Below are positions 36,728 through 62,286 of a stretch of DNA of 64,000 nucleotides, one piece after another. The first letter of the stretch is position 1. Each line of letters opens with the position of its first letter. This stretch comes from Alcanivorax sp. (GTDB lineage Bacteria; Pseudomonadota; Gammaproteobacteria; Pseudomonadales; Alcanivoracaceae). A program made the translations under genes and the position numbers. The notes beneath the pieces were generated by a model. It was not told the origin of the DNA, ran no database searches, and worked only from the letters and a program-made list of their open reading frames with translations. Location: assembly GCF_002733835.1 (NCBI RefSeq), contig NZ_NVWY01000001.1, positions 1 through 64,000 on the forward strand. The letters are read 5' to 3'.

Positions 36728-37078
36728 CTAGAAAAGAGTGTTTTGGTTCGGGTCGCCCATCGCCCGAACCCGCTTAATGATCTTATATATGGCCCTTACG
36801 GTCACGCCATGCTCACGAGCCAGGACATCATGGTTCGTTCCGTTGAACTTCTCATAGATAGCGACATCTCGAGCGGCGAGCTTGTAGTGGTGATCCTTCG
36901 GGATATTCACCAGCTGACCGCCCCAGTCTCTTGCCAGCATCTCGCTAACGGCACAGCCAGCCTGGTCGGCAACATCGGGATCAACCCCCAGATCGATCAG
37001 CTGCTGACGTGTGTTTAGGTGGACCGCTTCCAGCAATTCGTGGCGGCGGTGTTCCATCTGCGAGTCAGATCTGCTCAT
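36728..37078 (-). CDS. Mor-family transcription activator
   Basis: A 116-residue protein of the Mor/C family, which activates middle or late promoters in Mu. The conserved core is WGGQLVNIPKD, followed by an HTH (HDVAREHG-like segment VLAREHGVTVRAIYKIIKRVR). It is the last gene of the leftward early operon and overlaps the GemA-like gene by 14 bases. As the only Mor/C-type gene in the window it is the natural candidate to bind the three dyads upstream of the late operons; that link is inference. Confidence 0.88.
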   Translation of the reverse strand: MSRSDSQMEHRRHELLEAVHLNTRQQLIDLGVDPDVADQAGCAVSEMLARDWGGQLVNIPKDHHYKLAARDVAIYEKFNGTNHDVLAREHGVTVRAIYKIIKRVRAMGDPNQNTLF

Positions 37079-48404: not shown

Positions 48405-48449
48405 TTTTGCCCGCGTTCAAAATACATTCTCCGCTGCGCCCCCGATTAT
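48405..48449 (+). promoter_or_regulatory. Late promoter candidate 1, before the lysis operon
   Basis: The dyad TTTTG-CCCGCGTT-CAAAA (48405-48422) is followed by a -10-like GATTAT at 48444-48449. The hexamer starts 35 bases after the G of the left half-site, the same distance as in the two other copies. A strong hairpin (CGCCCCC / GGGGGCG) overlaps the -10. Confidence 0.65.
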
Positions 48450-48491
48450 GGGGGCGTAGTCGTTTTTGTTCATACGAAACCGGAGAATGTT

Positions 48492-48791
48492 ATGCCCCGC
48501 CTTTCCACTTGGTTGTTTATTTCTGTTGGGCTGCTGGCCGTGCTAGCACTGCTCAACCCCGCCCAGTTGCCTGTTGTGCTTTACAAGCTGTCCCTGGTTA
48601 GCCTGGGCGCCGTGCTGGGTTACTGGATTGATCGGTCGCTGTTCCCTTATGCACGCCCGCATTGTTTCCTTTTTCCGCATGAACCAAACAGCTGTGGGCC
48701 TGAGCACATCAATGTCGCGATTAGCCTGCTGATGCTCAGGCGGGCGGTGGTGATCTTTGCTGTGATCCTTGGCCTGACGCTGGGGCTGTAG
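48492..48791 (+). CDS. Putative holin
   Basis: A 99-residue membrane protein with hydrophobic segments at about 6-22, 28-45 and 82-98. The segment LYKLSLVSLGAVLGYWIDRSLFPYARP is typical of the holin-like proteins of BcepMu- and B3-type phages. It precedes the lytic transglycosylase and spanin genes, which defines the lysis cassette. The membrane hole role is inferred from family and position. Confidence 0.75.
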   Translation: MPRLSTWLFISVGLLAVLALLNPAQLPVVLYKLSLVSLGAVLGYWIDRSLFPYARPHCFLFPHEPNSCGPEHINVAISLLMLRRAVVIFAVILGLTLGL

Positions 48792-48793
48792 CC

Positions 48794-49441
48794 ATGAGCC
48801 ACGTTCGCGTTATCCAGTGTTTGCTCGTGTTGGCCTTGAGCGCCTTGCTGATCTTTGCGGTCAGCGGTTGCGCACCAGCGTATGCAGATGAGATCCCGCA
48901 AGCCGCCAAGAGCTACCAGCGCACGCTGATTCGCACCTCTCATGCCTTCTGGGGGCTAGATGTCCCCGTGGCCACCTTCGCCGCGCAAATCCACCAGGAG
49001 AGCCGCTGGCGCGCTGACGCACGTTCCCCTGTGGGCGCAGAGGGCTTGGCGCAATTCATGCCGGCCACTTCTGACTGGTTCGCCGAGCTGTACCCAAGCC
49101 ACCTGGGGGAACGGCAGCCCTATAACCCCGGCTGGGCCATGCGAGCCATGGTGCTCTACGACAAGTGGCTGCATACACGTATCCAGGCCGCGAGCCCCTG
49201 CGAGAAGTGGGCAATGGTGTTATCTGCGTACAACGGTGGCCTTGGTTGGGTGTACCGCGACAAAAGGCTGGCATCGAGTAAGGGGCTTGATCCGCTGGTC
49301 TGGTTCGATTCGGTGGAGCGGGTCAATGCGGGCCGCTCCGCCGCCAACTGGAACGAAAACCGGGGGTACCCCCGAAAGATTCTCCTGCGCTGGGAGCCCC
49401 TGTATGGGAGAGCCGCGTGGGGCGAAGGGGTATGCCCATGA
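48794..49441 (+). CDS. Phage endolysin, lytic transglycosylase (SLT) domain
   Basis: A 215-residue murein-degrading enzyme with an N-terminal signal/anchor ending in VSGCAPAYADE, so it may be exported by the host Sec system (possibly a SAR or lipoprotein signal). The SLT catalytic glutamate is in QIHQESRW, followed by GAEGLAQFMPAT and a later SAYNGG, all hallmarks of the lysozyme-like transglycosylase fold. It starts two bases after the holin stop. Confidence 0.88.
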   Translation: MSHVRVIQCLLVLALSALLIFAVSGCAPAYADEIPQAAKSYQRTLIRTSHAFWGLDVPVATFAAQIHQESRWRADARSPVGAEGLAQFMPATSDWFAELYPSHLGERQPYNPGWAMRAMVLYDKWLHTRIQAASPCEKWAMVLSAYNGGLGWVYRDKRLASSKGLDPLVWFDSVERVNAGRSAANWNENRGYPRKILLRWEPLYGRAAWGEGVCP

Positions 49442-49854
49442 TTGCCCGCTGGATCGTGGCTGTGTTGATGAGTTCGCTGTTCAGCGGTGCCGGCGCCTAT
49501 TTCTGGGGGTACCACCACGGCGAAACCGCCGTGCAAGCCAAAACCAGCTCCGCGACGGTGACCAAACTGGGCGAAGCCCTTGCCGAGCATGCGGACCTGG
49601 TCAGAGATTCCAAAGCGGCGAGCCTGCGTATTTCCCAGCTGCTGGCCGACAAAGGCAAATTCGACCAACAAACCACCCAGGAGCTACGCGATGCACTCGA
49701 TGAGAACGCTGGCCTGCGTGCTGATCTTCGCTATAGCGAGCGTGTCATGCAGCAGCTGGTCGCCGCCAGAGAGCGTGCCATCAACGCCGCAACCGGAGGC
49801 CTCGGCGACGCCCTGCAGCGCCCACCTCCCATACCCGACCAACGACCCGAATGA
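49438..49854 (+). CDS. Rz-like inner-membrane spanin
   Basis: i-Spanin of the lysis cassette: one N-terminal membrane helix (MIARWIVAVLMSSLFSGAGAYF) and a long periplasmic coiled coil (about 30-115). I start at ATG 49438, which overlaps the endolysin stop as ATGA; ATG 49432 would add two residues. An Rz1 lipoprotein gene is nested in another frame within it, the classical arrangement for outer-membrane disruption. Confidence 0.82.
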   Translation: MIARWIVAVLMSSLFSGAGAYFWGYHHGETAVQAKTSSATVTKLGEALAEHADLVRDSKAASLRISQLLADKGKFDQQTTQELRDALDENAGLRADLRYSERVMQQLVAARERAINAATGGLGDALQRPPPIPDQRPE

Positions 49855-49954
49855 GATGCCCGTGACGCTGAAGATCATGTACGACCTCTATGGCGAATGC
49901 GCCGGGCTGAAGTATGAGCAATACCGGTTCCGAATGAACCAGGGGGAAGAATGA
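49691..49954 (+). CDS. Rz1-like spanin lipoprotein, nested in the Rz gene
   Basis: Reads in a different frame inside and beyond the Rz gene. The product begins MHSMRTLACVLIFAIASVSC, where SVSC is a lipobox, and the first part of the mature protein is rich in proline and serine, as in Rz1. The start may be the second ATG at 49700. It would be the outer-membrane partner of the i-spanin. It ends with ATGA overlap into the gp25-like gene. Confidence 0.8.
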   Translation: MHSMRTLACVLIFAIASVSCSSWSPPESVPSTPQPEASATPCSAHLPYPTNDPNEMPVTLKIMYDLYGECAGLKYEQYRFRMNQGEE

Positions 49955-50298
49955 GTGAACTGACGATTGATATCGCCAAGTTCCTTGGCCTGGTGGTGAC
50001 CTTGGTGTCTCTTTTTTGGGGGATGAGTCGCCGACAACAGGCCCTGTTTGAAAAGCATCTGGACAGCAAGTTCGACACCTTGCAGGCCCGCCTGGAGCAC
50101 ATCGAGATCCGGGAAGGCGAGAACGGCAAGCAGGTCGCCCAGGTTGAACGGGAGCTAATGAAGCTACGTGCCGAGCTGCCAGAGAAGTACGTGCGACGAG
50201 AAGACTACATACGCGGCCAGAGCCTCATTGAAAGCAAGCTGGATGGGCTGGCCCTGAAACTGGAAAACCTGCAAATCCGGGAGGCAAAACGTGATTGA
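49951..50298 (+). CDS. DUF2730 (Mu gp25-like) protein
   Basis: A 115-residue protein with an N-terminal membrane helix (LTIDIAKFLGLVVTLVSLFWGM) and a long charged helix (LQARLEHIEIREGENGKQVAQVERELMKLRAEL). This matches DUF2730 proteins at the Mu gp25 position. Its role is not known. Confidence 0.78.
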   Translation: MSELTIDIAKFLGLVVTLVSLFWGMSRRQQALFEKHLDSKFDTLQARLEHIEIREGENGKQVAQVERELMKLRAELPEKYVRREDYIRGQSLIESKLDGLALKLENLQIREAKRD

Positions 50299-50602
50299 TC
50301 ATAACAAGGTGCGCCGCGAAGGCATGCGCTGGACGATCCTGCTCACGCTCAACCACGCCCGCCCGATCGGGGCGCATGAGCAGCTGATCCTTCAGACCAT
50401 TCAGGGGGTATACCCGGATGCCACTGCAACCGAAGTGCGCCGTGAGCTGGAATACCTGGACGACCGCAAGCTGGTGCAGGTAGAGAAAACCCCGGCTGGC
50501 GCCTGGCACGCCAAACTGACCCACTACGGCGTGGATGTGGCCGAGTACACCGTGGAGTGCCACCCCGGCATCGCCCGGCCTGAAAAATACTGGGAGGGCT
50601 GA
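50291..50602 (+). CDS. Mu gp26-like protein
   Basis: A 103-residue protein starting at GTG 50291, overlapping the gp25-like gene by 8 bases. The fold looks like a winged HTH (AHEQLILQTIQGVYPDATATEVRRELEYLDDRKLVQVEK). In Mu-like phages the gene at this place, between gp25 and the small terminase, is gp26. Function is unknown; DNA binding related to packaging is plausible. Confidence 0.72.
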   Translation: MIDHNKVRREGMRWTILLTLNHARPIGAHEQLILQTIQGVYPDATATEVRRELEYLDDRKLVQVEKTPAGAWHAKLTHYGVDVAEYTVECHPGIARPEKYWEG

Positions 50603-50604
50603 GT

Positions 50605-51123
50605 ATGCCCCAGGTATCCAAGGTGCAGCGTCTGAATGAAGACGACAAAAGCTGGCTTGATCAGGAGCTGGTGAAGCGTGGTTTTTCCGGCTATCAAGAG
50701 CTGGAAGAGCTGTGCCAAAACCGGGGCATCGATATTTCCAGCAGTGCCTTGCACCGCTATGGCAGCAGCTTCCGTGAGCGTCTGGACCAGGTGAAGTTGA
50801 TTACCGAGCAGGCTCGGGCCGTAGTGGCTGAGGCTCCCGATGATGAAGGTGCCGTCAATGAAGCCCTGATGCGTCTGGTTCAGGAGCGGCTTTTTGCCGT
50901 TATCCGCGACGCCCAGATACCCACGGAAGGCATTGATCTGCCGAAGTTGGCCAAGGCTATTGCTGATCTTGGGCGGGCCAGCGTCAGCCAGAAACGCCTG
51001 GCGGCGGAAGCCCGCAAGGAACTCCTTGAGGAGCAGCGCAAGAAGCTGGACGCCCTGGACAGTAAAGGTGGTGTTACCGCTGAAACTAAACAGGCTATCC
51101 GTGATGCACTGGGGATCAGCTAA
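50605..51123 (+). CDS. DUF3486 (Mu gp27-like) small terminase candidate
   Basis: A 172-residue protein of the DUF3486 family, placed directly before the large terminase as in Mu. An N-terminal HTH (LDQELVKRGFSGYQELEELCQNRGIDISSSALHRYG) precedes a helical oligomerisation part. Small terminase subunits recognise the packaging site. The stop overlaps the gp28-like start as TAATG. Confidence 0.85.
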   Translation: MPQVSKVQRLNEDDKSWLDQELVKRGFSGYQELEELCQNRGIDISSSALHRYGSSFRERLDQVKLITEQARAVVAEAPDDEGAVNEALMRLVQERLFAVIRDAQIPTEGIDLPKLAKAIADLGRASVSQKRLAAEARKELLEEQRKKLDALDSKGGVTAETKQAIRDALGIS

Positions 51124-52583
51124 TGGCGATGCGCGTAGGCAATGCAAAGGTTATCCCGGCTAATCCTGATGCCATTTTTCTGCCGTTCCAGAGTCAATGG
51201 ATCAAGGATGACAGCCGCCTGAAGCTGATGGAAAAAGGCCGTCAGATCGGCCTGAGCTGGTCAACGGCGTATGCATGCAATGAGCGTACAGCGGCTCAGG
51301 GTGCACGACACGATCAGTGGGTATCAAGCCGAGATGACCTCCAGGCGCGCCTCTTCATTGAAGATTGCAAGCACTGGGCCAGCATCATGAACCTGGCTGC
51401 CAAGGACATGGGGGAAATGGTCATTGATCCCAATGATCGTATTTCTGCTTATGTGCTGCAGTTCGCCAGTGGCAAGCGTATTCACAGTATGTCCAGCAAC
51501 CCGGATGCCCAGGCAGGTAAACGCGGTGGGCGCGTTCTGGATGAGTTCGCCTTGCACCCGGACCCTCGCAAGCTGTGGTCCATCGCTTATCCGGGTATCA
51601 CCTGGGGCGGCAATCTTGAAGTGATATCCACCCACCGTGGCAGCCATAACTTTTTCAACCAGCTGGTGCGCGAGGCCCGAGAGGCAGATAACCCCAAGAA
51701 TATCAGCCTTCACCGCGTGACTCTGCAGGACGCGCTGGATCAAGGGTTTCTGTACAAGCTGCAGCAAATGCTCCCAGAAGGTGATGAACGGCAGGCCATG
51801 GATGAAGCGGAGTATTTCGACTTTGTTCGCTCAGGCTGTGCTGATGAGGAATCTTTCCAGCAGGAGTACATGTGCAACCCGGCTGATGACGATGTTGCCT
51901 TCCTGGAATATGACCTGATCGCTGCCAGCGAGTACCCCGCCGGATATCCATGGCAGGAAATCGGGACCGGTCGTCTTTATGCCGGCATTGATATCGGACG
52001 CAAGAAAGACCTTACCGTGCTGTGGATTGTGGAGAAACTGGGAGACGTGCTCTACACACGCCATATCGAGCGCCTTCAGAACATGCGCAAAAGCGACCAG
52101 GAGGCCATTCTCTGGCCGTGGCTGAACCTGTGCGATCGGATCTGCATTGATGCCACCGGTTTGGGTATTGGCTGGGCGGATGATGCCCAGGACAGGTTCG
52201 GTTCCAGCAGGGTGGAAGCGGTCACGTTTACCCCCAAGGTGAAAGAAGCATTGGCATACCCGATCCGCAGCCATATGGAAGACCGGAAGCTGCGGATTCC
52301 ACATGACCCGAAGACCCGCGCTGATCTGCGTCAAGTGACCAAACAAACCACCGCCGCCGGCAATGTGCGATTCACTGCCGAACGTACCCCTGATGGCCAT
52401 GCTGACCACTTCTGGGCATTGGGCTTGGCGATTGAAGCTGCCGGGCAGCCATCCGCCCCCCTGGAATACCAATCCACCGGCCCGCGTAGCGCATTGGCCA
52501 ATGGCGACGGGTCGCCCATCGTCACACTCACCGACACCGGCTTCGGCACCGTCGGTGGCGGCAACAATTTTGGAGGCTTCTGA
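51123..52583 (+). CDS. Mu gp28-like large terminase
   Basis: Packaging motor and nuclease of 486 residues. The ATPase P-loop region is the deviant EKGRQIGLSWSTAYA (about residues 37-51), and the RNase H-like nuclease domain starts with GRLYAGIDIGRKKDLTVLW (about 280-298), where the aspartate of GIDIG is the first metal ligand. Headful packaging from the left end with host DNA is expected for Mu-type phages. The stop overlaps the portal start. Confidence 0.92.
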   Translation: MAMRVGNAKVIPANPDAIFLPFQSQWIKDDSRLKLMEKGRQIGLSWSTAYACNERTAAQGARHDQWVSSRDDLQARLFIEDCKHWASIMNLAAKDMGEMVIDPNDRISAYVLQFASGKRIHSMSSNPDAQAGKRGGRVLDEFALHPDPRKLWSIAYPGITWGGNLEVISTHRGSHNFFNQLVREAREADNPKNISLHRVTLQDALDQGFLYKLQQMLPEGDERQAMDEAEYFDFVRSGCADEESFQQEYMCNPADDDVAFLEYDLIAASEYPAGYPWQEIGTGRLYAGIDIGRKKDLTVLWIVEKLGDVLYTRHIERLQNMRKSDQEAILWPWLNLCDRICIDATGLGIGWADDAQDRFGSSRVEAVTFTPKVKEALAYPIRSHMEDRKLRIPHDPKTRADLRQVTKQTTAAGNVRFTAERTPDGHADHFWALGLAIEAAGQPSAPLEYQSTGPRSALANGDGSPIVTLTDTGFGTVGGGNNFGGF

Positions 52584-54112
52584 TGGCCGATTACGAACAG
52601 CTCAATTCCGGGTTACTGGTGCCTGCCAATTTCGCTGCCCAGCCGGCCAGCAACGCACGGCCAGAAATGCGTGAGGTGGCTTCCACCAGCGATGGCCGTG
52701 ATATTACCCGAGGCTATCTGGACCCCATGTCCATACAGCCCTCCACGGACAGCGTGCTGATGACCCGTGGCAACGGGGATTACACCCTCTACAAGGAAGT
52801 GCTGCGCGATGACCAGGTCGGCAGCACCTTCAATCAGCGCCGCTTGGCGGTCTCCAGTAAGGAATGGGGGGTAGACCCTGGCGGCAAGACCCGCAAGGAC
52901 AAAGCGGCTGCAGACTTCATGGCTGAGCAGATCCAGCACATCGGCTGGGATCGGGTCACCGAGAAAATGCTGTTTGGCATCTTCTATGGCTTTGCCGTTG
53001 CTGAACCCATGTGGGGTCGCGATTCCCGATTCATTACCATCGATCGGATGATCGTGCGAAACCGCCAGCGTTTCGGCTTTGATGGCAAAAGCCGGCTGCG
53101 CATGCGCACCTGGAACAATCCGGAAGGCGAGTTGATGCCGGATAAGAAGTTCTGGCATTTCACCACGGGTGGCGACCACGACGATGAGCCTTATGGTCTT
53201 GGCCTGGGCCATTGGCTTTACTGGCCGGTGTGGTTCAAGCGTAACGGACTCAAGTACTGGCTGGTGTTCCTGGAGAAGTTCGGCCAGCCCACCGCCAAGG
53301 GCACTTACCCACCGAATGCGCTCCCCCACGAAAAGCAAAAACTGCTGCAGGCGCTGGGGGCGATCAGTACGGATGCCGGCGTGATAGTGCCGGACGGCAT
53401 GGCCATAGAGCTGCTGGAGGCCGCCCGCTCCTGTACCGCTGATTATTCCAGCTTGATGGATCGCATGGACCGGGCCATCGCCAAGGTATGCCTCGGCCAG
53501 ACCGCAAGTTCAGAAGGCACGCCAGGAAAACTGGGCAATGAGGAGCTGCAGGGAGACGTGCGCCAGGATCTGGTGAAGGCAGATGCTGACCTGGTATGCG
53601 AAAGCTACAACACCAGCGTTGGCCGCTGGCTCACCGAGTGGAACTTCCCCGGTGCTGCAGCGCCGCGTGTATATCGCAAGGTGGAGCCGGATGAAGACAC
53701 CAACAAGCGTGCAGAGCGTGACAAGACCATTTACGACATGGGCTTCAAGCCAACGCTGAAACACATCCAGGAGAACTATGGCGGGGAATGGGAAGAGAAA
53801 GCCCCTGCCAACGATCCACCTGCAGTGCCAGGCAATGAGGCCAACTTTGCTGCAGGTGACCCATCCGTACCCCAGCAACTGGAGCCGGCTGCCCGCACGA
53901 ATGTGGAACAAGCGACTGACAGCTGGATCAACCAGATCCGCCAGATCGTTGAGGAAGTGGATTCCCTGGAAGCGCTGCGCGATCGCCTGCTGCAGGTGTA
54001 CCCGGACCTGACCCTGGACCAGTATGCGGATGCCATGGCTGAAGTCTTGGCCACGGCGCACCTGGCTGGCCGCAACGAGGTGGTGGAGGAAGATCCCGAT
54101 GCCCTCCGTTAA
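52583..54112 (+). CDS. Portal protein, DUF935 (Mu gp29-like)
   Basis: A 509-residue portal subunit. DUF935 hallmarks: the N-terminal ITRGYLDPMSIQPS segment, DDQVGSTFNQRRLAVSSKEW, then GFAVAEPMWGRDSRF and the central KFWHFTTGGDHDDEPYGLGL. It forms the dodecameric ring at the packaging vertex. It lies between the terminase and the gp30-like head morphogenesis gene, which overlaps it by 14 bases. Confidence 0.92.
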   Translation: MADYEQLNSGLLVPANFAAQPASNARPEMREVASTSDGRDITRGYLDPMSIQPSTDSVLMTRGNGDYTLYKEVLRDDQVGSTFNQRRLAVSSKEWGVDPGGKTRKDKAAADFMAEQIQHIGWDRVTEKMLFGIFYGFAVAEPMWGRDSRFITIDRMIVRNRQRFGFDGKSRLRMRTWNNPEGELMPDKKFWHFTTGGDHDDEPYGLGLGHWLYWPVWFKRNGLKYWLVFLEKFGQPTAKGTYPPNALPHEKQKLLQALGAISTDAGVIVPDGMAIELLEAARSCTADYSSLMDRMDRAIAKVCLGQTASSEGTPGKLGNEELQGDVRQDLVKADADLVCESYNTSVGRWLTEWNFPGAAAPRVYRKVEPDEDTNKRAERDKTIYDMGFKPTLKHIQENYGGEWEEKAPANDPPAVPGNEANFAAGDPSVPQQLEPAARTNVEQATDSWINQIRQIVEEVDSLEALRDRLLQVYPDLTLDQYADAMAEVLATAHLAGRNEVVEEDPDALR

Positions 54113-55355
54113 CTATGGATCTGTTCCTTTCCAGGAGCAGATCCTGTTCTTCCGCCGCAAGCTGAATATCCCCACCGAAAGCTGGACGGATATCTACGGC
54201 CAGGAACATGACTGGGCCTTCATGGTGGCAGGCGCTAACCGTGATGCCATTGTGGCGGATTTCCGGGAGGCGGTAGAAAAGGCGATTGCTGGCGGCGGCA
54301 CGCTAGAGGAATTCCGCAAAGACTTTGACAAGATCGTTGCTCGCCATGGCTGGGATTACAACGGCGGACGCGCCTGGCGAAGCCGGACCATCTTTGAGAC
54401 CAACCTGTTTTCCAGCTACTCAGCAGGCCGCTATGAGCAACTGGAAGCCGCCAAAGACGCCTTGCCCTATCGGCAGTACCACCACAGCGACGCGGTAGAA
54501 CACCCCCGGCCTGAGCATCTGGCGTGGGATGGTTTGATCTTGCGAGCCGATGACCCGTGGTGGGACACCCACACCCCGATTAACGCCTGGGGCTGCCAAT
54601 GTTATGTGACAGGCCTGACCGAAGACGACCTGCGTGAGATGGGCAAGGATGGCCCAGATGAAGCCCCTGGCATGGAGTGGGAAGAAAAGATCATTGGCCA
54701 GCGTAGCGCTGACGGCCCCCGCACCGTGCGCGTACCTGCAGGCATCGACCCCGGTTTTGAGCATGCACCGGGTCGTAGTCGCCTGAAGAGTGCCGTGCCA
54801 CCTGAAAAGCCTGAACCGCCGTTACCGGGCTCCCAGGGCGGCCCTGGGCTGCCCAATACCCGTCCCGCTTCGCCACTGCCCTCAGTGCGCCCTTATCCCG
54901 CCAGCCGTTTGTTGCCTGAAGGGTTGGATGAAGAGACTTATGCCAATGCCTTCCTGGAAGAGTTCGGTGCCACCCTGGATGAGCCTGCCGTTTTCCGCGA
55001 TGTGATTGGCGAACGCCTGGCAATTGGGCGTGAGCTTTTTGTGGAGCGCAGGAGTGGCCGGCTAAAAGCCAACAAGCGAGGCCGGGGCCGCTACATGAAG
55101 CTGCTGGCCGATGCCTTGCAGTCGCCCGATGAGATATGGGTACGGCTGGAGTGGCAAGCTGCCAGAAAGAAGGCCGTGGTGCGGCGGCGCTATATCGCTC
55201 GCTTCCAACTGCCAGATGAGCAGGTGCCGGCGCTAGCTGTGTATGAGTTATCCCACGATGGCTGGTCGGGCATCACGGTATTTCAGCCCGATGCTCACCA
55301 GATTGAGGATATGCGCGTGGGTGCGCGGTTGTACTTCAGGGAGGAAGAGGAGTGA
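54099..55355 (+). CDS. Head morphogenesis protein (Mu gp30/F, SPP1 gp7-like) with probable C-terminal PBECR-type nuclease domain
   Basis: A 418-residue minor head protein. I start at ATG 54099 with GAGGAA upstream, because the frame before it reads as an out-of-frame copy of the portal gene. The SPP1 gp7-like domain covers about residues 60-190 and ends with the conserved WDTHTPINAWGCQCYV. A proline-rich linker (about 225-280) precedes a C-terminal domain (about 285-405: ERLAIGRELFVER, YMKLLADALQSPDEIWVRLEW, RRRYIARFQL) of the barnase-EndoU-RelE-like (PBECR) class fused to such proteins. Its target is unknown. Confidence 0.85.
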   Translation: MPSVNYGSVPFQEQILFFRRKLNIPTESWTDIYGQEHDWAFMVAGANRDAIVADFREAVEKAIAGGGTLEEFRKDFDKIVARHGWDYNGGRAWRSRTIFETNLFSSYSAGRYEQLEAAKDALPYRQYHHSDAVEHPRPEHLAWDGLILRADDPWWDTHTPINAWGCQCYVTGLTEDDLREMGKDGPDEAPGMEWEEKIIGQRSADGPRTVRVPAGIDPGFEHAPGRSRLKSAVPPEKPEPPLPGSQGGPGLPNTRPASPLPSVRPYPASRLLPEGLDEETYANAFLEEFGATLDEPAVFRDVIGERLAIGRELFVERRSGRLKANKRGRGRYMKLLADALQSPDEIWVRLEWQAARKKAVVRRRYIARFQLPDEQVPALAVYELSHDGWSGITVFQPDAHQIEDMRVGARLYFREEEE

Positions 55356-55446
55356 TCGCGGGCCGGCACCCGCGATCCGGTGATGTTTGGCGGCCCTGTT
55401 TGCCGGGGGCGTATCCATCACCGCAGTCTTCAGTTTAGGAGGTTCC

Positions 55447-56010
55447 ATGGCTGGTGCCAAGATCGAGTTCGACCACAAGGACGTCAGCGCCAAGATCGGC
55501 GCGGCGATTCAGGGCCTGGATAACCCCGGCCCGTTGTTCCAGATCATCATCGAATACCTGACGCGGGTGCATCGTCAGCGCTTCCGTAACCAGGTGTCGC
55601 CGGAGGGCACGCCCTGGGCGCCGTTGTCACCGGCCTACAAGAAGCGCAAGCACCGCAACGCGAATAAGATCCTCACATTGCGTGGGCACTTGGCTGGCAC
55701 CCTGCGCGGCCAGCATGACCAAACGGGGCTGGAGTTCGGTACCGACCGGGCCTATGGTGCAGCCCAACACTATGGTGCTGAGATCGATCGGGCTGCCAGT
55801 ACCCGCGAGGTCTACTTCCGCCAAAAGCGTGACGGCAGTGTTGGCAACCAGTTCGTTAAGAAGGGCAAGAGCAACTTCGCCCAGACCGTGAATGTGGGTG
55901 GCTACAAGATCCGCATTCCTGCCCGGCGCTGGTTGGGCACCAATGAGCAGCAGAACAACCAGATCGTCAAGAAAGCCCACGATTATCTGCAAAATGCCAT
56001 GGGCGCCTGA
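55447..56010 (+). CDS. Virion morphogenesis protein (Mu gpG-like)
   Basis: A 187-residue member of the phage virion morphogenesis family. I start at ATG 55447 with a strong AGGAGG upstream. Features: EYLTRVHRQRFRNQVSPEGTPWAPLSPAYKKRK, then a tail with PARRWLGTNEQQNNQIVKKAHDYL. In Mu, gpG is a tail completion/assembly protein. It closes the terminase-portal operon; the gap to the next gene (56011-56247) contains only a weak hairpin near 56008 and the second late promoter. Confidence 0.85.
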   Translation: MAGAKIEFDHKDVSAKIGAAIQGLDNPGPLFQIIIEYLTRVHRQRFRNQVSPEGTPWAPLSPAYKKRKHRNANKILTLRGHLAGTLRGQHDQTGLEFGTDRAYGAAQHYGAEIDRAASTREVYFRQKRDGSVGNQFVKKGKSNFAQTVNVGGYKIRIPARRWLGTNEQQNNQIVKKAHDYLQNAMGA

Positions 56011-56169
56011 GAGGCCCTACAAGGCCCCTCAGCCCTCTTGCTGCTACCGTTGCCGCACCCAAACCCCGTTTCGATGCCGTAAAAGTTTTATAAAAGCGAA
56101 TTGAGGCCTTCCCGGCTCGGGTTTCTGCCTGAGTTGTCATTTCCACTCTGAAAACCCCCAATCGGCAAA

Positions 56170-56214
56170 TTTTGCCCGCGTTCAAAAGACTCTGATGCCG
56201 CCAATCCCGATAGT
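56170..56214 (+). promoter_or_regulatory. Late promoter candidate 2, before the head protease operon
   Basis: The dyad TTTTG-CCCGCGTT-CAAAA (56170-56187) is identical over all 18 bases to copies at 48405 and 62236. The -10-like GATAGT is at 56209-56214, again starting 35 bases after the G of the left half-site. The start of the protease gene is 34 bases further on. It corresponds in position to the PI promoter of Mu. Confidence 0.7.
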
Positions 56215-56247
56215 GGCTCCATCGACCCACTTCGATAGCAGGCCCAC

Positions 56248-57423
56248 ATGAGTAAAGCGCTGGAAATTTTCAAATCAGGCACGCACACCGACATGCACGG
56301 GCAGCGGCTGACCTTCACGGATGAGGATCTGGATCAGATCATCGCTGATTACGATCCGGCGGTGTTTGCTGCGCCGTTGGTGGTGGGCCACCCGAAAACC
56401 GATGACCCGGCCTACGGCTGGGTGGGCAAGCTGGCGAAGGCCGGCGACATTCTTACTGTCACAGAGACGGACAAGCTGGAAGCCGCTTTTGCTGAAAGCG
56501 TGAATCAGGGCCGCTGGAGAAAGATCAGCGCAGCCTTCTTCCCGCCCAAGCACCCGGCCAACCCCAAGCCCGGTGGTTGGTATTTACGCCACGTGGGTTT
56601 TCTTGGTGCCGCTGCACCAGCCATCAAAGGCCTTCGACCTGCTGAGTTTTCCGAAGCGGATGATGACCTGGTCATCGTCGAATTCTCCGAAGCCGATTTT
56701 GAAAGCCGCTGGGTGCTGGGCCGTTTGGCCCGAAGCCTGCGCGACTGGCTGCTGGAAAAATTCGATGCCGAGACCGCCGACAAAGTCATCCCTGATTACC
56801 TTGCACGTGAAGCGGAGCGTGCCGGTGACCGGCGCCACGCATCTGAACCTGACACAGCGTTTGCTGCTGCGCCAGATCCCTCTACGACTCAACCCAACAC
56901 TCAAACCCCGGAGGACACCACCGTGGACCCCAATAAAGAGCAAGAGCAACAAGCAGCAGCCTTTGCGGAACGCGAAACCGCGTTGCAAACCCGCGAACAG
57001 GAGCTGGCTGCCAAGGAACAGAAGCTGGCAGAACAAGCCGCTGCTGCCCGCAAGGAAGACATTGCTGAATTCGCCGAGAAGCTGGTGAAGGAAGGCAAGG
57101 TGCTGCCCCGGGAAAAAGAAGGCCTGGTTGCCTTCATGGAAGCCCAGGACGACGAGGCTGTCGTGGAGTTCGCCGAAGGCGATACCACCGTCAAGAAACC
57201 GGGTAGCGACTGGCTGAACGCCTTCCTTGAGGGTCTGCCGGCGCGGGTTGATTTTGCTGAGCGCGGCGCGGCCACGGATGACGAAGGCCACCGTGATGCC
57301 AGCTTTGCGGCGCCTGCAGGCTATTCCGTCGACGCGGATCAGCTCGCCATCCACAACAAGGCCGTGGCTTACCAGGCCAAACATCAATGTGACTACACCA
57401 CCGCCATCAACGCGGTGAGCTAA
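56248..57423 (+). CDS. Head maturation protease with C-terminal scaffold (Mu gpI-like)
   Basis: A 391-residue protein. The N-terminal protease domain (about 1-160) has DYDPAVFAAPLVVGHPKTDDPAYGWV and FFPPKHPANPKPGGWYLRHVGFLGAAAPA, typical of Mu I proteases. A long coiled coil (about 225-300, rich in A, E, Q and K) forms the scaffold part. The scaffold is probably also made separately from an in-frame GTG at 56923. The gene is first in the capsid operon, after late promoter candidate 2. Confidence 0.88.
   Translation: MSKALEIFKSGTHTDMHGQRLTFTDEDLDQIIADYDPAVFAAPLVVGHPKTDDPAYGWVGKLAKAGDILTVTETDKLEAAFAESVNQGRWRKISAAFFPPKHPANPKPGGWYLRHVGFLGAAAPAIKGLRPAEFSEADDDLVIVEFSEADFESRWVLGRLARSLRDWLLEKFDAETADKVIPDYLAREAERAGDRRHASEPDTAFAAAPDPSTTQPNTQTPEDTTVDPNKEQEQQAAAFAERETALQTREQELAAKEQKLAEQAAAARKEDIAEFAEKLVKEGKVLPREKEGLVAFMEAQDDEAVVEFAEGDTTVKKPGSDWLNAFLEGLPARVDFAERGAATDDEGHRDASFAAPAGYSVDADQLAIHNKAVAYQAKHQCDYTTAINAVS
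56923..57423 (+). CDS. Nested scaffold protein (Mu gpZ-like), in-frame internal start
   Basis: The internal GTG at 56923 is in frame with the protease gene and is preceded by GGAGG at 56910-56914, 8 bases upstream. The 166-residue product starts VDPNKEQEQQAAAFAER and comprises only the coiled-coil scaffold region. In Mu, gene Z is nested within I in the same way, so this start is well supported. Confidence 0.75.
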   Translation: MDPNKEQEQQAAAFAERETALQTREQELAAKEQKLAEQAAAARKEDIAEFAEKLVKEGKVLPREKEGLVAFMEAQDDEAVVEFAEGDTTVKKPGSDWLNAFLEGLPARVDFAERGAATDDEGHRDASFAAPAGYSVDADQLAIHNKAVAYQAKHQCDYTTAINAVS

Positions 57424-57434
57424 AGGAGAGTTTC

Positions 57435-57773
57435 ATGAGTGCTCAAAAGATCGCGTTGCTGACGCTGACCGCCGCCGCGACTGCGGCCAACACTCAACAC
57501 CGCTTCGTCGGCTTCGACGGCGCCCCTGCAGCCGCAGCGGGTAATGCCTTAGGTGTTGGCGTTGTCGATGCGGAAATCGGTGACGATTTCGGCGTGGATG
57601 TGCTCGGCACCACGGTAGTGGAAGCCGGTGGCGCCATTGCTGATGGCGGAGCCATTGAAGTGGGTGCCGATGCCAAGGCTGTTGCACAGTCTGCCGGTGT
57701 CACCGTTGCAAGGGCTCTGCAGGAAGCCGCAGCGGATGGCGATCTCATCGAAGTCCTGCTGATCGCTAACTAG
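57435..57773 (+). CDS. DUF2190-type capsid decoration protein
   Basis: A 112-residue protein very rich in alanine, glycine and valine (GFDGAPAAAAGNALGVGVVDAEIGDDFGVDVLG), as in capsid cement (DUF2190) proteins that stabilise heads. It sits between protease/scaffold and major capsid genes, which is the usual place. AAAGGAG precedes the ATG. Confidence 0.8.
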   Translation: MSAQKIALLTLTAAATAANTQHRFVGFDGAPAAAAGNALGVGVVDAEIGDDFGVDVLGTTVVEAGGAIADGGAIEVGADAKAVAQSAGVTVARALQEAAADGDLIEVLLIAN

Positions 57774-57793
57774 GCCAACCAGGAGAGCCTTCA

Positions 57794-58711
57794 ATGAATA
57801 ATCGTCAAGTACGAGTTATCGACCCGATTCTGTCCACGCATGCGCAGGGGTATCGCCACCCGGAGCATGTGGGGATGGCGCTGTTTCCCCGGGTACCGGT
57901 TGCCGTGTCCGGTGGGCAGATTCTGACCTTCGGAAAAGAAAGCTTCCGTCAGTACAACATCCGTCGTACCCCCGGCTCCGCTACCAAGCGGGTGCAGTTC
58001 GGTTATGCCGGCAAACCCTTTGCCCTGGTCCAGGATGCTCTGGAAGGTGTGGTGCCGCGTGAACATCTGCGCGACGCGAGCCAGACACCGGGTATCAATC
58101 TCGGCCAACGCGCTACCAACAATGCCATGCGTATTGCCAGCCTGGCGCTGGAAGTCGAACAGGCTGCCCTGGCACGGGATGCCAACAACTACGACAACGA
58201 CCACAAGGTGGATCTGTCCGCCAGTCGTTGGACCGATGACGCCAATAACCCGGCCAAGGATATCCGCGTGGGGCAGGAAGCGATCCGCCAAACTACCGGC
58301 ATGGAGGCCAATACTCTGACGCTGTCTGCTAAAGCGTTTTCTGCTATCCGCGAAAACCCCAAGGTGCTGGAGCGATTCAAATACACCAGCCGTGACTCCA
58401 TCACCGTCGAAATGATCGCCGCGCTGCTGGATCTGGATCAGGTTGTGGTGGGCCGGGCTGTCACTGCTGGTACCGGCGACGCCTTCAGCGATGTCTGGGG
58501 TCCTGATGCCGTGCTGGCTTATGTGCCCCAGCAGGCCAGCTCCATGGAAGAGCCGAGCTACGGCTACACCTACACCATGGATGGCCACCCGTTGGTGGAG
58601 CAGCCCTATTACGACAACAACGCCAAGAGCTGGCTGTACCCGGCGACCTATGAGCGTGCGCCGGTGATCAGCGGCATGGAAGCGGGTTACCTGTTCCAGA
58701 ACGTGGGCTAA
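57794..58711 (+). CDS. Major capsid protein (Mu gpT-like)
   Basis: The 305-residue main head subunit. It begins with RVIDPILSTHAQGYRHPEHVGMALFPRVPV, characteristic of this capsid family, and ends with the conserved YSFTMDG-like part YTYTMDGHPLVEQPYYDNNAKSW. It should have the HK97 fold. No obvious N-terminal delta domain is present, consistent with a separate scaffold. It follows the decoration gene by 20 bases. Confidence 0.88.
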   Translation: MNNRQVRVIDPILSTHAQGYRHPEHVGMALFPRVPVAVSGGQILTFGKESFRQYNIRRTPGSATKRVQFGYAGKPFALVQDALEGVVPREHLRDASQTPGINLGQRATNNAMRIASLALEVEQAALARDANNYDNDHKVDLSASRWTDDANNPAKDIRVGQEAIRQTTGMEANTLTLSAKAFSAIRENPKVLERFKYTSRDSITVEMIAALLDLDQVVVGRAVTAGTGDAFSDVWGPDAVLAYVPQQASSMEEPSYGYTYTMDGHPLVEQPYYDNNAKSWLYPATYERAPVISGMEAGYLFQNVG

Positions 58712-58792
58712 TCCCCCCTGGCGGTGGCGAACTTGCCGGTTCATAGCCACGACTCTACCCGCCAGAACCGGTCCTATTTCAGGAGAATTGGG

Positions 58793-59098
58793 ATGGCACA
58801 AAACCACTCTGACGTTGAAGCGATGATGAAAGATCAGCGCTGCGATGGTGATCGCATCACAAGCGAAGGCATTGAAGCCCGAATTTCCGAAGTGGGTTAC
58901 CAGATCGTTACGCTGGCCGGACAGAAAATGATGTTTTGCGGTATCCGCATGGATAACGGCTTTGTTGTTGTCGGAAAGCCCGCCACCTGTATCGACCCGG
59001 CCAATTGGCGCGATGAAATCGGCCAAAAGATCAGCTACGACAATGCGTTCAGTGAGATCTGGAAGTTGGAAGCCTATCGAAAGATGAGCGGCGCGTAG
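58793..59098 (+). CDS. N4 gp49 / Sf6 gp66 family protein
   Basis: A 101-residue protein from ATG 58793 (AGGAG upstream); the frame before it is unlikely coding. Hallmarks: RITSEGIEARISEVGYQI, then NGFVVVGKPATCIDPANWRDEIGQKISYDNAF, matching a family of small proteins found widely in phages and of unknown function. It is unusual that it lies among capsid genes, so it may be an inserted extra gene. Confidence 0.82.
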   Translation: MAQNHSDVEAMMKDQRCDGDRITSEGIEARISEVGYQIVTLAGQKMMFCGIRMDNGFVVVGKPATCIDPANWRDEIGQKISYDNAFSEIWKLEAYRKMSGA

Positions 59099-59123
59099 CC
59101 AAACCATTATTCAGGAGAATGTC

Positions 59124-59627
59124 ATGGGACGTTACAAGATTGTCACCCCGGTCAAACTGGCAGGTGAAATCCATAAAGGCGATGAGTTGATCTGTGCTTC
59201 CGAGCTGGCCGCGCCGTTGGTGAAATCTGGCAGCCTGCTGCCACTGGATACCGAAAGTGGCAGCACGGGCACCGATGACGCCGCCGCTTTTTCTGCCGCA
59301 ATTGCACAGCTGGACCCGAACAACCCGGATCACTGGATGAAGTCGAACGGTGCGCCGGACTTGAAGGCCCTGGAGAAAGTCGGTGGCCTGAAGCTGAAAG
59401 CGGCAGACCGCGACGGCCTGTGGGCGGAGTACAAAAACGCCCAGGAAGTGGAAGGCTACTGGGTACACGCCAAAGAAGGCACCGTCCAGTGGGGCGACAT
59501 GGTTATCGACGAAGACGGTATCGGTTTCGCCCTGGATGCGCTGACCGAGGAACAGGTCTCTGAACTGAAGGCCCGGGAAGACCTGGTCATTGCACAACGC
59601 ACCTTTGGCGGAATCGCTAGCGCATGA
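59124..59627 (+). CDS. Mu gp35-like head-region protein
   Basis: A 167-residue protein at the Mu gp35 position. It begins with a beta-rich segment (RYKIVTPVKLAGEIHKGDELI) and contains LDPNNPDHWMKSNGAPDLKALEKVGGLKLKAADRDGLWAE, a HI1506-like motif found in several Mu-like phages. The function is not known. CAGGAG precedes the start; its stop overlaps the gp36-like start as ATGA. Confidence 0.65.
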   Translation: MGRYKIVTPVKLAGEIHKGDELICASELAAPLVKSGSLLPLDTESGSTGTDDAAAFSAAIAQLDPNNPDHWMKSNGAPDLKALEKVGGLKLKAADRDGLWAEYKNAQEVEGYWVHAKEGTVQWGDMVIDEDGIGFALDALTEEQVSELKAREDLVIAQRTFGGIASA

Positions 59628-60133
59628 GCTATATCTCCCACGCCCAATTAGCCGAACGGCCCGGTGCACGTGAACTCGCAGAGGTGGCAACCGCTACCCA
59701 TGAGCACATCGTGGCTGCCGAGCTGATGGAGGCCTCCCTGCAAGGGGATGATCGCAGCGCTTGGTCAGCAGCTGAAATCGCGGTGGCCGATGACGCCCTG
59801 CAGCGCATTGATGATGCGGTTTCGGATGCTCAGGCCACCATCGATGGCTTCCTGGGTAAGCGTGGGTACCTGCCCCTCAATCCGGTGCCAGGTATTGTTA
59901 CCGCCTGGACCCGTGCGATCGCCCGGTACTTCCTCCACAAGGATCGTATCCGCACGGACGAAAAGAGTGACCCGATCGTGCGGGATTACCGCGATGCCAT
60001 GAAGCTGCTCCAGCTGACCGCCGAGGGGAAATTCAGCCTGGGCGCAGAAGATGACCTGGTCAGCCAGGGCACCGGCTCGCCGGCATTCACGCCTGGCTCC
60101 TCAACGATCCGCGACAGCTTGAAGGATTACTGA
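59624..60133 (+). CDS. DUF1320 (Mu gp36-like) head-tail connector protein
   Basis: A 169-residue DUF1320 protein: the N-terminal SYISHAQLAERPGARELAEVA, then DDALQRIDDAVSDAQATIDGFLGKRGYLPL and AIARYFLHKDR. These proteins form head-tail connector rings related to the HK97 gp6 fold. Genes on both sides overlap it by one to four bases. Confidence 0.85.
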   Translation: MSYISHAQLAERPGARELAEVATATHEHIVAAELMEASLQGDDRSAWSAAEIAVADDALQRIDDAVSDAQATIDGFLGKRGYLPLNPVPGIVTAWTRAIARYFLHKDRIRTDEKSDPIVRDYRDAMKLLQLTAEGKFSLGAEDDLVSQGTGSPAFTPGSSTIRDSLKDY

Positions 60134-60591
60134 TGAGCGCCCCCCTGGATACCACGGTCATCGAGCAGCGCCTGCGCGATGCGGTGAAGGATCTGCAACA
60201 GGTTAAGGGCGCCGCTGAGTTCGCGGCGGTGACCTCCCTGGGCAGTTACCGGGTGCCGTCGGCCTATGTGGTGCTGGCCCGGGAAGAAGGCACCGACGAC
60301 CCCAACGGCCAGCCGGGCCGCAGGCCATCGGGTAAGCAGCAGGCAAAAGTCACCTTCGGGGTGATTACGGCCGTGCGTAACTACCGGGACAGCACCGGCG
60401 CCCAGGCGGCCCGCGATGCATCACCGCTGATTGGCCAAGTTCGAGAGGCCCTGATGGGTTGGCAGCCTGCCGACCGGTCGATGAGGCCAATCGGCTGGCT
60501 GCAGGGCGATGTGTTGGATTACGACGCCAGCGTATTGCTCTGGATCGACGTTTTCACTACCACCCACTTCATTGGAGGCAACGCCCCATGA
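60133..60591 (+). CDS. Gp37-type tail terminator protein
   Basis: A 152-residue protein at the Mu gp37 position: TVIEQRLRDAVKDLQQVKGAAEFA and the C-terminal VLLWIDVFTT motif are typical of tail terminator/Gp37 proteins. It would cap the tail tube and join it to the head. Start overlaps the gp36-like stop as TGATG. Confidence 0.78.
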   Translation: MSAPLDTTVIEQRLRDAVKDLQQVKGAAEFAAVTSLGSYRVPSAYVVLAREEGTDDPNGQPGRRPSGKQQAKVTFGVITAVRNYRDSTGAQAARDASPLIGQVREALMGWQPADRSMRPIGWLQGDVLDYDASVLLWIDVFTTTHFIGGNAP

Positions 60592-60809
60592 GCACCAAGA
60601 AAAAGACGGTGAAGGTAACTCTCGCCAAGCCCCATACCCATGCCGGCAAACCCCGCAAGGAAGGCGCCGAAATTGAAGTCACTCCACGCCAGGCCCAATG
60701 GCTGGCCGAACGCGGCACGATCAAAACCGGCGCCGGTGGCTATCAGCCGGTAAAGACTGACGGCCCCAAAGGCCACTCTTCAACTGAGAATAAGGGAGAT
60801 CAAAAATGA
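60588..60809 (+). CDS. Small phage structural-region protein, 73 residues
   Basis: Starts at ATG 60588, overlapping the terminator gene stop as ATGA. The product is basic (MSTKKKTVKVTLAKPHTH) with a segment EIEVTPRQAQWLAERGTI typical of small proteins before the tail tube gene in siphophages. In Mu the analogous position holds gp38. Role unknown. Confidence 0.65.
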   Translation: MSTKKKTVKVTLAKPHTHAGKPRKEGAEIEVTPRQAQWLAERGTIKTGAGGYQPVKTDGPKGHSSTENKGDQK

Positions 60810-61564
60810 AAGACTTTTCCCTACAGGGCAAAGTGTACCTGGGCGCATCCCTTGCCGGTGGCAAGCCGGGTGCCATGCATTGGGTGAATGATGCGGGTGT
60901 ATTGCAGATCTCCCCGACGGTGTCCGAAGAGAAGCGCCAGGAAAGCCACTCTGGCTTACGCCAAACCAGTGCCACGCTGAACACCGGTACCGAGGTGGCG
61001 TTCACCCTGACCCTGTATCACGGTACCGCCAAAAATCTTGCTCTTGGGCTGTATGGTACCGAGCGCACTATCGTTGCCGGCACGGTAACCGATGAACCGA
61101 TTCCGACGGTTGTGGATGGTGACATGGTTGTCCTGGATCGTGGCGGTATCAGCGCGTTGGTAATCGAAGATAGCGATGGTGCGCCGACCACGCTGGTGGA
61201 AGACACCCACTATCGGATTGCCAGCGCCACCGGTGGCGTGCTGGAAATGCTCGATGTATCTGCGTTAACCCAGCCGCTGCTTGCAGACTACGAGAATGGT
61301 GCGGCCACTGACCTGACCATGTTCACTCAGCAGGCTCCGATTCGTTACCTGATGCTGGATGGCGTGAATACGGTCGATGGTGGCGGTGAGAATGTCCGTG
61401 TGCGGCTCTACAAGCTGAAGTTCAACCCGGTATCCCAGCTGGATCTGATTAACAGCAGCTTCGGTGAAATCTCACTCACTGGCACTTGCCTGTTCGAGTC
61501 CACAGCGGCCATGGATGAGGCGCTGGGTGGCTTTGGCCGTATCGAGTTGCTGGAGGCCTCCTAA
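60806..61564 (+). CDS. Major tail tube protein, siphovirus type
   Basis: A 252-residue beta-rich protein. The N-terminal GKVYLGASLAGG, then WVNDAGVLQISPTVSEEKRQESHSG, and the C-terminal YKLKFNPVSQLDLI are typical of tail tube subunits of B3-like transposable siphophages. No sheath gene is present between the connector genes and the tape measure, so the tail should be long and non-contractile. It overlaps the upstream gene by ATGA and the chaperone by TAATG. Confidence 0.8.
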   Translation: MKDFSLQGKVYLGASLAGGKPGAMHWVNDAGVLQISPTVSEEKRQESHSGLRQTSATLNTGTEVAFTLTLYHGTAKNLALGLYGTERTIVAGTVTDEPIPTVVDGDMVVLDRGGISALVIEDSDGAPTTLVEDTHYRIASATGGVLEMLDVSALTQPLLADYENGAATDLTMFTQQAPIRYLMLDGVNTVDGGGENVRVRLYKLKFNPVSQLDLINSSFGEISLTGTCLFESTAAMDEALGGFGRIELLEAS

Positions 61565-62079
61565 TGGCCAAGGTGGTGCCGCAAGAGCAACAGCCTGACG
61601 CCCAGGAGGAGAATGACCTGGAAATCCTGCACCCCGAGCAAGAAGTGGTAATTGCCGGGGTGAAGGTAGTCATTCGTGAATATGGCTTTGTTGAGGGGCT
61701 GAAGATCCGCACCAAAGCAAAGCCATTCATTCATGGCCTGCAAGAGATCCTCAGTGGTGGCCAGCCATCGCTGGAAGAGATCCTGGACCTGCTGGCAGAG
61801 CACCTTGATCTGGCCCTGGAGCTGGTGGCTGATTCTGCCGATATGCCCCTGGATTGGGTTCATTCACTCAGTGAGCATGAGGGGGACGTGCTGCTCTACA
61901 CCTGGTGGAGTGTGTGCGGCCCTTTTTTTGTTCGGTCTGCTCAAAGACGGGTGGTCAGCAGCAAACTGCAAGACCGGTTCGCAAAGGCAAGCCAGTCCGC
62001 TGGCGAGAAATCTACGCCACCCTCATCGGAGCAGGCCACCGAGCTGACCAAATCGGAGGCTACACCGAGCGACAAATAA
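61564..62079 (+). CDS. Tail assembly chaperone, unshifted product
   Basis: A 171-residue protein lying between the tail tube and tape measure genes, the usual place of tail chaperones. The N-terminal two thirds (DLEILHPEQEVVIAGVKVVIREYG, KIRTKAKPFIHGLQEIL) is folded, and the C-terminal tail after residue 122 is basic then polar and low complexity, suggesting an alternative end. A slippery T7 at 61923-61929 gives a second, longer product by -1 frameshift, described separately. Confidence 0.82.
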   Translation: MAKVVPQEQQPDAQEENDLEILHPEQEVVIAGVKVVIREYGFVEGLKIRTKAKPFIHGLQEILSGGQPSLEEILDLLAEHLDLALELVADSADMPLDWVHSLSEHEGDVLLYTWWSVCGPFFVRSAQRRVVSSKLQDRFAKASQSAGEKSTPPSSEQATELTKSEATPSDK

Positions 62080-62210
62080 TGCTGTACTTCGATGCAGCGT
62101 TACGGCGTGAGCGGCACCAGCGGGTTGCCCGGTTTAATGATGTTCGGATGGCCTTTGGTGCAGATAAGGACAATGCGAAAAGCTATATAAAAGCGCTCAC
62201 GGATAACTGA
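61564..62210 (+). CDS. Tail assembly chaperone, -1 frameshift fusion product
   Basis: Joins codons 1-122 of the upstream frame (to 61929) with the -1 frame from 61929 to the stop at 62208-62210, about 215 residues. The heptamer T-TTT-TTT at 61923-61929 is in the correct phase (TTT-TTT codons at 61924-61929) for simultaneous -1 slippage. The shifted part is well formed (VRWREIYATLIGAGHRADQI, MLYFDAALRRERHQR). In lambda and many siphophages the chaperone pair G and GT is made this way. Alternatively the second part could start at ATG 62080, which directly follows the first stop. Confidence 0.75.
61923..61929 (+). promoter_or_regulatory. Programmed -1 frameshift slippery site
   Basis: Seven T residues in the phase T-TTT-TTT, within the overlap of two open frames; both tRNAs can re-pair perfectly after a -1 slip. 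Confidence 0.75.
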
Positions 62211-62213
62211 CTG

Positions 62214-62239
62214 GCGGCCATGGAGGCCGCTATTTTTTT
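62214..62239 (+). terminator. Rho-independent terminator after the tail chaperone genes
   Basis: The stem GCGGCC / GGCCGC with loop ATGGA is followed by TA and T7. Its T run is also the left half of the third late promoter dyad. Confidence 0.85.
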
Positions 62240-62280
62240 GCCCGCGTTCAAAAGACGATTCCCGCCATACCCGCCATGAT
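62236..62280 (+). promoter_or_regulatory. Late promoter candidate 3, before the tape measure gene
   Basis: The dyad TTTTG-CCCGCGTT-CAAAA is at 62236-62253, with the -10-like CATGAT at 62275-62280, 35 bases after the G of the left half-site as in the other copies. The expected transcript start falls close to the tape measure ATG at 62287, so the message may be almost leaderless. Confidence 0.65.
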
Positions 62281-62286
62281 CCCCTC

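Follow-up and report, generated by a model that had tools for sequence, protein, structure and literature searches.

The window is a 64,000-nucleotide (nt) stretch of Alcanivorax sp. DNA (contig NZ_NVWY01000001.1, positions 1 to 64,000) and contains a prophage with the layout of B3-like transposable phages. The early genes, coding for transposases A and B, GemA, and Mor, run leftward and end with gemA-mor. The lysis, head, and tail genes run rightward, and the large terminase shares 78.5% identity with its phage B3 counterpart. The subject of this report is an 18-bp dyad, TTTTGCCCGCGTTCAAAA, located upstream of three late operons, together with its probable reader, the product of the single Mor/C-family gene. 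The features concerned are the following.

36728 to 37078, minus strand: Mor/C-family activator gene, the only one found, last in the leftward run of early genes
37065 to 37523, minus strand: GemA homologue, an early gene
39399 to 40592, minus strand: DNA transposition protein (AAA ATPase, transposase B type)
40589 to 42391, minus strand: transposase A (phrog_310)
48405 to 48422, plus strand: candidate Mor-family operator 1, dyad TTTTGCCCGCGTTCAAAA, lysis operon (sequence match)
48433 to 48460, plus strand: terminator-like hairpin with a T-run, its loop holding the lysis -10 hexamer
48444 to 48449, plus strand: -10-like hexamer GATTAT, predicted +1 near 48456
48492 to 48791, plus strand: holin (phrog_1528, PF13272)
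48794 to 49441, plus strand: SLT-domain endolysin
56170 to 56187, plus strand: candidate Mor-family operator 2, protease/head operon (sequence match)
56209 to 56214, plus strand: -10-like hexamer GATAGT, predicted +1 near 56221
56248 to 57423, plus strand: head maturation protease (phrog_976)
57794 to 58711, plus strand: major head protein (phrog_1005)
62212 to 62232, plus strand: terminator-like hairpin, its T-run merging into the TTTT of operator 3
62236 to 62253, plus strand: candidate Mor-family operator 3, tail operon (sequence match)
62275 to 62280, plus strand: -10-like hexamer CATGAT, whose predicted +1, 62287, is the first base of the tape-measure ATG
62287 to 64000, plus strand: tail length tape measure protein (phrog_24, PF06791), which extends past the window (975 aa in L055)

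The 18-mer is letter-perfect at all three places, as the original prediction had it. The site was written there as two arms joined by dashes, which are mere notation; it is 18 bp long, with arms TTTTG and CAAAA flanking CCCGCGTT. With the inner CGCG included, seven of the nine symmetric positions pair. No further match with up to three mismatches is present in the window. In dinucleotide shuffles of the window the matches average 0.12, and not one shuffle in 100 reached three. Each -10-like hexamer starts 22 nt past its 18-mer, which equals the predicted fixed distance of 35 bases after the G of the left arm. The placement before late operons (holin and endolysin, protease, tape measure) also stands. 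The proposed match to the positions of the lys, I, and P promoters of Mu is approximate, because the third site precedes the tape measure gene. An open reading frame (ORF) of the conserved phage family phrog_4506, listed as unknown, occupies 47517-48401 and ends 4 bases ahead of operator 1.

Equal abundance of the dyad elsewhere had been named as an outcome that would count against a role in the phage, and this is not what the genome holds. The whole assembly (3,596,023 bases, 93.49% complete) has three exact copies, all in the prophage, no copy with one mismatch, and one with two. Two matches with three mismatches are located outside the phage sites, and a control pattern, TTTTGCCCGCGTTCAAAA read backwards, has one genome match within three mismatches. 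Chance and host-genome background are ruled out as the source of the dyads by these counts and the shuffles. The proposed motif search beyond the window yielded a fourth site in the same prophage. This is the copy with two mismatches, TTTTGTCCTCGTTCAAAA, at contig positions 74051-74068 (L055:14051-14068), 11.8 kb beyond the third copy. It is followed by TATAGT at offset 23. The next gene of a known family, which is listed as starting at a GTG 308 nt past the dyad, encodes a DNA adenine methylase of the D12 class. All four dyads lie upstream of late genes inside the prophage, and the early/repressor region has no dyad within three mismatches of TTTTGCCCGCGTTCAAAA.

The distance from dyad centre to -10 start is 30.5 bp at the window sites, which places the dyad centre at about -43.5 relative to the predicted start point, and 31.5 bp at the fourth site. 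A -10 is recognisable at the sites. There is no good -35 hexamer, just a partial GAC or TAC where TTGACA would be. Given a 17-bp spacer, the bases GAC after the dyad occupy the GAC place of a -35 TTGACA.

The Mor of the window scores 97.4 bits against the PF08765 profile (curated cut-off 24.9). This profile matches both Mor and C of Mu and the assembly (93.49% complete) shows one such gene, so no separate C is seen. Two paralogous activators, as in the three-tier cascade of Mu, are thus not seen in this assembly. Among 46 genomes searched in the host's own family, a PF08765 gene is found in the window's genome only. The 50 IMG/VR records chosen for a Mor gene, which may be fragments, have one PF08765 gene in 49 cases and two in G726. 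The latter (the IMG/VR record of L369) carries its Mor-family genes at 560-874 (minus strand) and 10030-10350 (plus strand) and has no site in 20 kb. In an AlphaFold model of the window Mor (pLDDT 83), a helix at 94-107 follows the turn after helix 83-90, with Arg95 as its second residue. The first seven rows of a Foldseek search with this model are Mor or C chains of Mu; the matches are weak (best E 0.001, TM 0.26-0.42, rmsd above 9).

Related phages keep the geometry of the window sites and change the letters of the dyad. Phage B3 has TTTTCG-N6-CGAAAA ahead of holin, protease, and tape measure. In the corresponding positions JBD25 and Fc02 have TTTTCGCTCCTTCCAAAA, TTTTCGCCCCTTCCAAAA, and TTTTAGCGTCTTCCAAAA, respectively, and the Fc02 copies stand at 11702 (holin), 20100 (protease), and 25607 (tape measure). 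Komp_PAO1_1 has four sites of the form CTTTAAACC[CT]GATTAAAA. The Sinorhizobium phages Aussie and StopSmel contain GC-rich late-region repeats (CGCGCACCTGCGTGCATG and kin; L059 at 20988 and 24736, L060 at 19287 and 22778). These were kept out of all counts, and the Mor of these phages aligns only with a long insert.

A test set of 50 IMG/VR phages, 20 kb each, was picked by Mor similarity and not by site. The search was blind to the letter at dyad position 5 and sought repeated dyads with a -10 at +22. A best pair score of at least 24 was reached on 30 of 50 late strands and on none of 50 early strands (early maximum 23.0). The architecture is present in 44 of the 50, 37 by the strict search and seven by the weaker relaxed search. 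Among the 37 strict phages, 30 score at least 24, and the other seven, at 20-23.5, lie at or near the early-strand maximum and were retained by eye. For G715 and G738 the strict output looked spurious and the relaxed output was used in its place. When repeated dyads were found without using the -10, the pattern xAxxxT stood at offset 22 in 64 of 298 late-strand cases, against 5-15 of 298 at every other offset tested. On the early strand the figure at offset 22 is 16 of 298, inside the range of 2-17 seen there at other offsets. The three bases after the dyad are GAC in 42 and TAC in 16 of 87 non-redundant sites; this count leans upward, because [GT]nC at that place adds to the strict score and is a precondition in the relaxed search.

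The exact 18-mer is also present in other collections. IMG/VR holds 32 matches in 26 stretches (20 contigs by listing), and nine contigs have at least two copies. Thirty of these matches lie far enough from the ends to be read onward: xAxxxT stands at +22 in 27 and at +23 only in three, and [GT]nC follows in 28, a set gathered without that criterion. A collection of 84,980 bacterial and archaeal genomes has the 18-mer in 22 stretches, a single match each, with xAxxxT at +22 in four and at +23 only in two, and with [GT]nC after the dyad in four. The sole one of these 22 with hexamer and [GT]nC at +22 is L038 (Bordetella pseudohinzii), where a Mor gene is present. A Burkholderia stretch, L034, has GTC and the hexamer at +23, yet its genome has no PF08765 match. 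The other 20 are probably chance matches. One Mor-family gene each was found in 11 of the 22 carriers of the 18-mer that were searched (20 IMG/VR records and two genomes).

The letter at dyad position 5 covaries with the second residue of the predicted recognition helix of Mor. The covariation set is composed of 66 phages, 22 training and 44 test. The training phages are 22 of 45 first-set units. Left out were G001 (Mor and sites as in the query), G015 (G002 type), Fc02 and UMP151 (as JBD25), G005 (which yielded no Mor), Aussie, StopSmel, and 16 units in which no repeated dyad was convincing. Sites of G002, G006, and G018 were taken from the exact-18-mer search and not from the repeat search. 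The rule for Arg, Gln, and Asp was recorded before the test phages were sought.

An Arg at this place goes with G at position 5 of both arms in 30 of 30 phages (test 18/18). Gln goes with A in 20 of 21 (test 16/17), with one exception whose left arm has C and whose right arm has A, and Asp goes with C in 2 of 2 (test 1/1). In PM105, Gly goes with T. Preferences of Arg for G, Gln for A, and Asp for C are familiar from protein-DNA recognition. Over all 66 phages this residue-base pair ranks first of 981 (109 Mor columns by 9 half-site positions), at 0.92 above the permutation mean with the next at 0.68; it comes first again among test phages only (0.97, next 0.88). Restriction to the 30 test phages scoring at least 24 gives Arg with G in 16/16, Gln with A in 5/5, and Asp with C in 1/1. 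With the relaxed rescues excluded and the training phages included, the counts are 28/28, 16/16, and 2/2. Of the clusters drawn at 60% Mor identity, those composed solely of test phages agree with the rule for Arg (7) and Gln (3), but a Gln cluster includes L269 (C on the left, A on the right) and the Val phage L284 (A).

Letters also swap between close relatives. Within clades of at least 60% identity, phiSHP3, L321, and L323 have Arg and G, whereas G608a and L329 have Gln and A. The Mor proteins of B3 and PM105 are 85% identical, and in the helix stretch (GVTEDWIYSVVR versus GISEGLIYEIVR) 6 of 12 residues differ. All three operators differ between these two phages, while the lysis and protease -10 hexamers and the DNA beyond are the same (80-nt stretches compared). 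The two look like a natural altered-specificity pair. L214 and L215 (G750 and G751) have the helix SLAF, versus SLQF in the related Komp, and their operator is still CTTTAAACTCGATTAAAA; Gln is thus not required for A at position 5.

Taken together, it is about 90% probable that the three window dyads and the fourth outside it are operators of the single Mor/C-family activator of the prophage, which would directly activate the late operons. The original prediction had named the Mor-family protein as the activator, and this is the best reading of one PF08765 gene, the geometry of the Mu Pm promoter, and the residue-base covariation. A dimer of Mor, whose gene closes the leftward early set, would bind the 18-bp dyad. 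The bound dyad would take the place of a good -35 element, and Mor would help the host sigma-70 RNA polymerase to initiate where the late promoters are otherwise weak. Transcription of the lysis, head, and tail operons would begin in this way, and probably that of the DNA-methylase gene too. The result would be a two-step cascade from early to late genes, without the middle phase of Mu or its relay from Mor to C. The suggestion that a single protein covers the roles of both Mor and C fits the gene content and the distribution of sites. Binding, activation, the start points, and direct Mor control at all four places are inferred here from sequence.

Several observations weigh against this reading or limit its reach. 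In the first set, 16 of 45 units lack such dyads, with a relaxed search on both strands included: Mu, Mwe, LspJY19, G261a, G261b, G640, G089, G264, G657, G390, G484, G446, G608b, G603, G574, and G496. Helices of the Arg type (G484, LspJY19) and of the Gln type (G640, an 11 kb contig; G657; G608b) are among them. The repeated-dyad detector missed the Mor and C sites of Mu itself. No site was found in 6 of the 50 test phages (G713, G726, G730, G741, G746, G747), 20 kb each. The dyad architecture is not universal among Mor carriers. The seven relaxed rescues score 17-19.5, against chance pairs in empty units of up to 19.5; they were accepted for resemblance to strict motifs and are counted as weak. 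At the fourth site the -10 is at offset 23, not 22. The residue-base rule is incomplete, because Val, Pro, or Ala also occur with A (6 phages) and Ser occurs with mixed letters (6). Of the 12 training phages with Arg, nine had been selected through the exact 18-mer and are no test of Arg with G in that direction, so the test phages carry the weight there.

In one rival reading, the dyad is read by another phage protein or a host protein and the Mor match reflects shared ancestry only. Position 5 covaries with many Mor columns, which ancestry by itself would predict; column 50 is also high (0.68 versus 0.92, and 0.88 versus 0.97 among test phages only), and among phage proteins the covariation was computed for Mor alone. 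The top column is nevertheless the second residue of the predicted recognition helix, its residue types match the base preferences given above, and the letters swap within clades of at least 60% identity and between B3 and PM105. Such a reader is very unlikely. A repressor that silences weak late promoters in the lysogen from the same dyads is also highly improbable, and slightly the more so. A dyad over the -35 region suits repression equally well, and the hairpin at site 1 suggests a value in keeping transcription off the late genes. The covarying protein, however, is of the Mor/C family, in which the members studied act as activators, and the -35 place offers only a partial match. The late region has five consensus promoters against a shuffled mean of 7.8, that is, no excess, and the early/repressor region is devoid of the dyad at up to three mismatches. 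The idea that the repeats are non-regulatory, as chance occurrences, parts of terminators, or packaging or transposition sites, deserves almost no credence. Two of the three dyads do adjoin a terminator-like hairpin, as parts of terminators might. Copy number, the fixed -10 spacing, the late-strand excess, the location before late genes, and letters that change together with Mor all count against this idea.

The hairpin at 48433-48460 is strong. Transcripts from upstream could stop there before the holin, and the late transcript would start beyond the left arm. At the lysis promoter the hairpin arms are kept among relatives and the hexamer is variable. A -10 inside a terminator hairpin does not hold generally: it occurs at 3 of 93 non-redundant sites versus 12 of 1,953 control positions, and so is confined to some promoters. 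Pairing between inverted arms that flank the -10 averages 2.55 of 7, versus 2.08 (sd 0.13) for dealt arms; this excess is modest and is not relied on. At operator 3 of the window a terminator-like hairpin stands just ahead of the dyad, and JBD25 looks similar there.

Start codons have a distinct distribution downstream of the hexamers. The survey covered 153 site instances whose -10 stands at offset 22 or 23, each read to the first ATG that opens an ORF of 60 codons or more. This ATG is 6, 7, or 8 nt beyond the hexamer in 53 instances and 9-19 nt beyond it in none; the rest lie at 20 nt or more, and six have no ATG within 150 nt. Removal of duplicates (n=111) leaves 39 at 6-8 nt, none at 9-19 nt, 64 at 20 nt or more, and eight without an ATG. 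The close ATG of the window is that of the tape-measure gene (region 62275-62289), at the predicted start point, and in phiSHP3, PM105, and JBD25 the close ATG is where the protease gene is annotated to begin. About one third of these promoters are predicted to give leaderless late mRNAs, because the ATG coincides with the predicted start in about that share of sites.

A joint reading of the phages is that Mor-family proteins and their promoters make up a large, naturally varied series of matched pairs in which Arg, Gln, and Asp at the second helix residue set G, A, and C at dyad position 5, that a one-protein, two-tier late programme operates in many B3-like and BcepMu-like phages, and that about a third of the promoters give leaderless late mRNAs. 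This is likely, and it is held less firmly than the reading of the window because of the 16 empty units and the weak relaxed rescues. The promoter type and the protein family are known; searches of the open-access literature turned up nothing on these dyads, on a late regulon run by one activator, or on the residue-base rule, all of which are apparently undescribed there. The dyads offer candidate cis-elements for the late control of transposable phages with Mor and no C, and they suggest that the two-activator relay of Mu is not the sole design. The phages form a large natural series of activator-operator pairs suited to a one-residue, one-base rule, and matched pairs could serve as genetic parts.

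The letters and spacing of the C sites of Mu are taken to differ from those of these dyads. In other respects the C system is similar. C (PMC4461284; PDB 9l0x, 9vw8) acts at four dispersed sites, Plys, PI, PP, and Pmom. As in the prophage, these sites serve lysis, head, tail, and DNA modification, and the activator is from PF08765. The fourth site here, ahead of a DNA methylase, recalls Pmom, the fourth C-dependent promoter. In Mu, C is produced by a separate middle operon, whereas no second family member was found in this assembly.

Mor- and C-dependent promoters are thus already known from Mu (PMC4390567 and PMC4461284). At Mu Pm, PMC4390567 (PDB 1rr7, 9l0y) describes a Mor dimer on a 16-bp element centred at -43.5 that stands in for the -35 contact. 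Both systems have a Mor-family activator and a G/C-rich spacer between inverted arms. When the bases of Table 4 in that source are placed on the Mu sequence, TATCCT, the likely -10, begins 30.5 bp past the centre; this -10 and the arm assignment are a reading made in the present analysis. The distance from dyad centre to -10 is then equal in the two, and neither has a good -35. From this equal geometry, Mor of the prophage would likewise bind its dyad and aid sigma-70. The arms are AGTAA/TTAAT at Mu Pm by the same reading and TTTTG/CAAAA here. Mor of Mu acts at a middle promoter that leads to C, whereas the Mor-family protein of the prophage would drive the late operons directly.

There is also a close likeness to the Pseudomonas phages B3, PM105, JBD25, and Fc02. 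These phages have the same gene order, with the Mor gene ending the leftward early genes, and dyads before holin, protease, and tape measure with the -10 at offset 22 (23 at the JBD25 and Fc02 protease). They differ in dyad letters, along with the Mor recognition helix, and the open-access searches gave no published account of their sites. RNA-seq of Fc02 after induction (PMC9936078) gives three forward-strand late clusters, and holin-endolysin leads the first of them. Escherichia phage PhiKM (Bcepmuvirus) and Pseudomonas phage Komp_PAO1_1 share the dyad architecture. They differ in having a Gln helix with A at position 5 and in their annotated tail sheath or baseplate genes.

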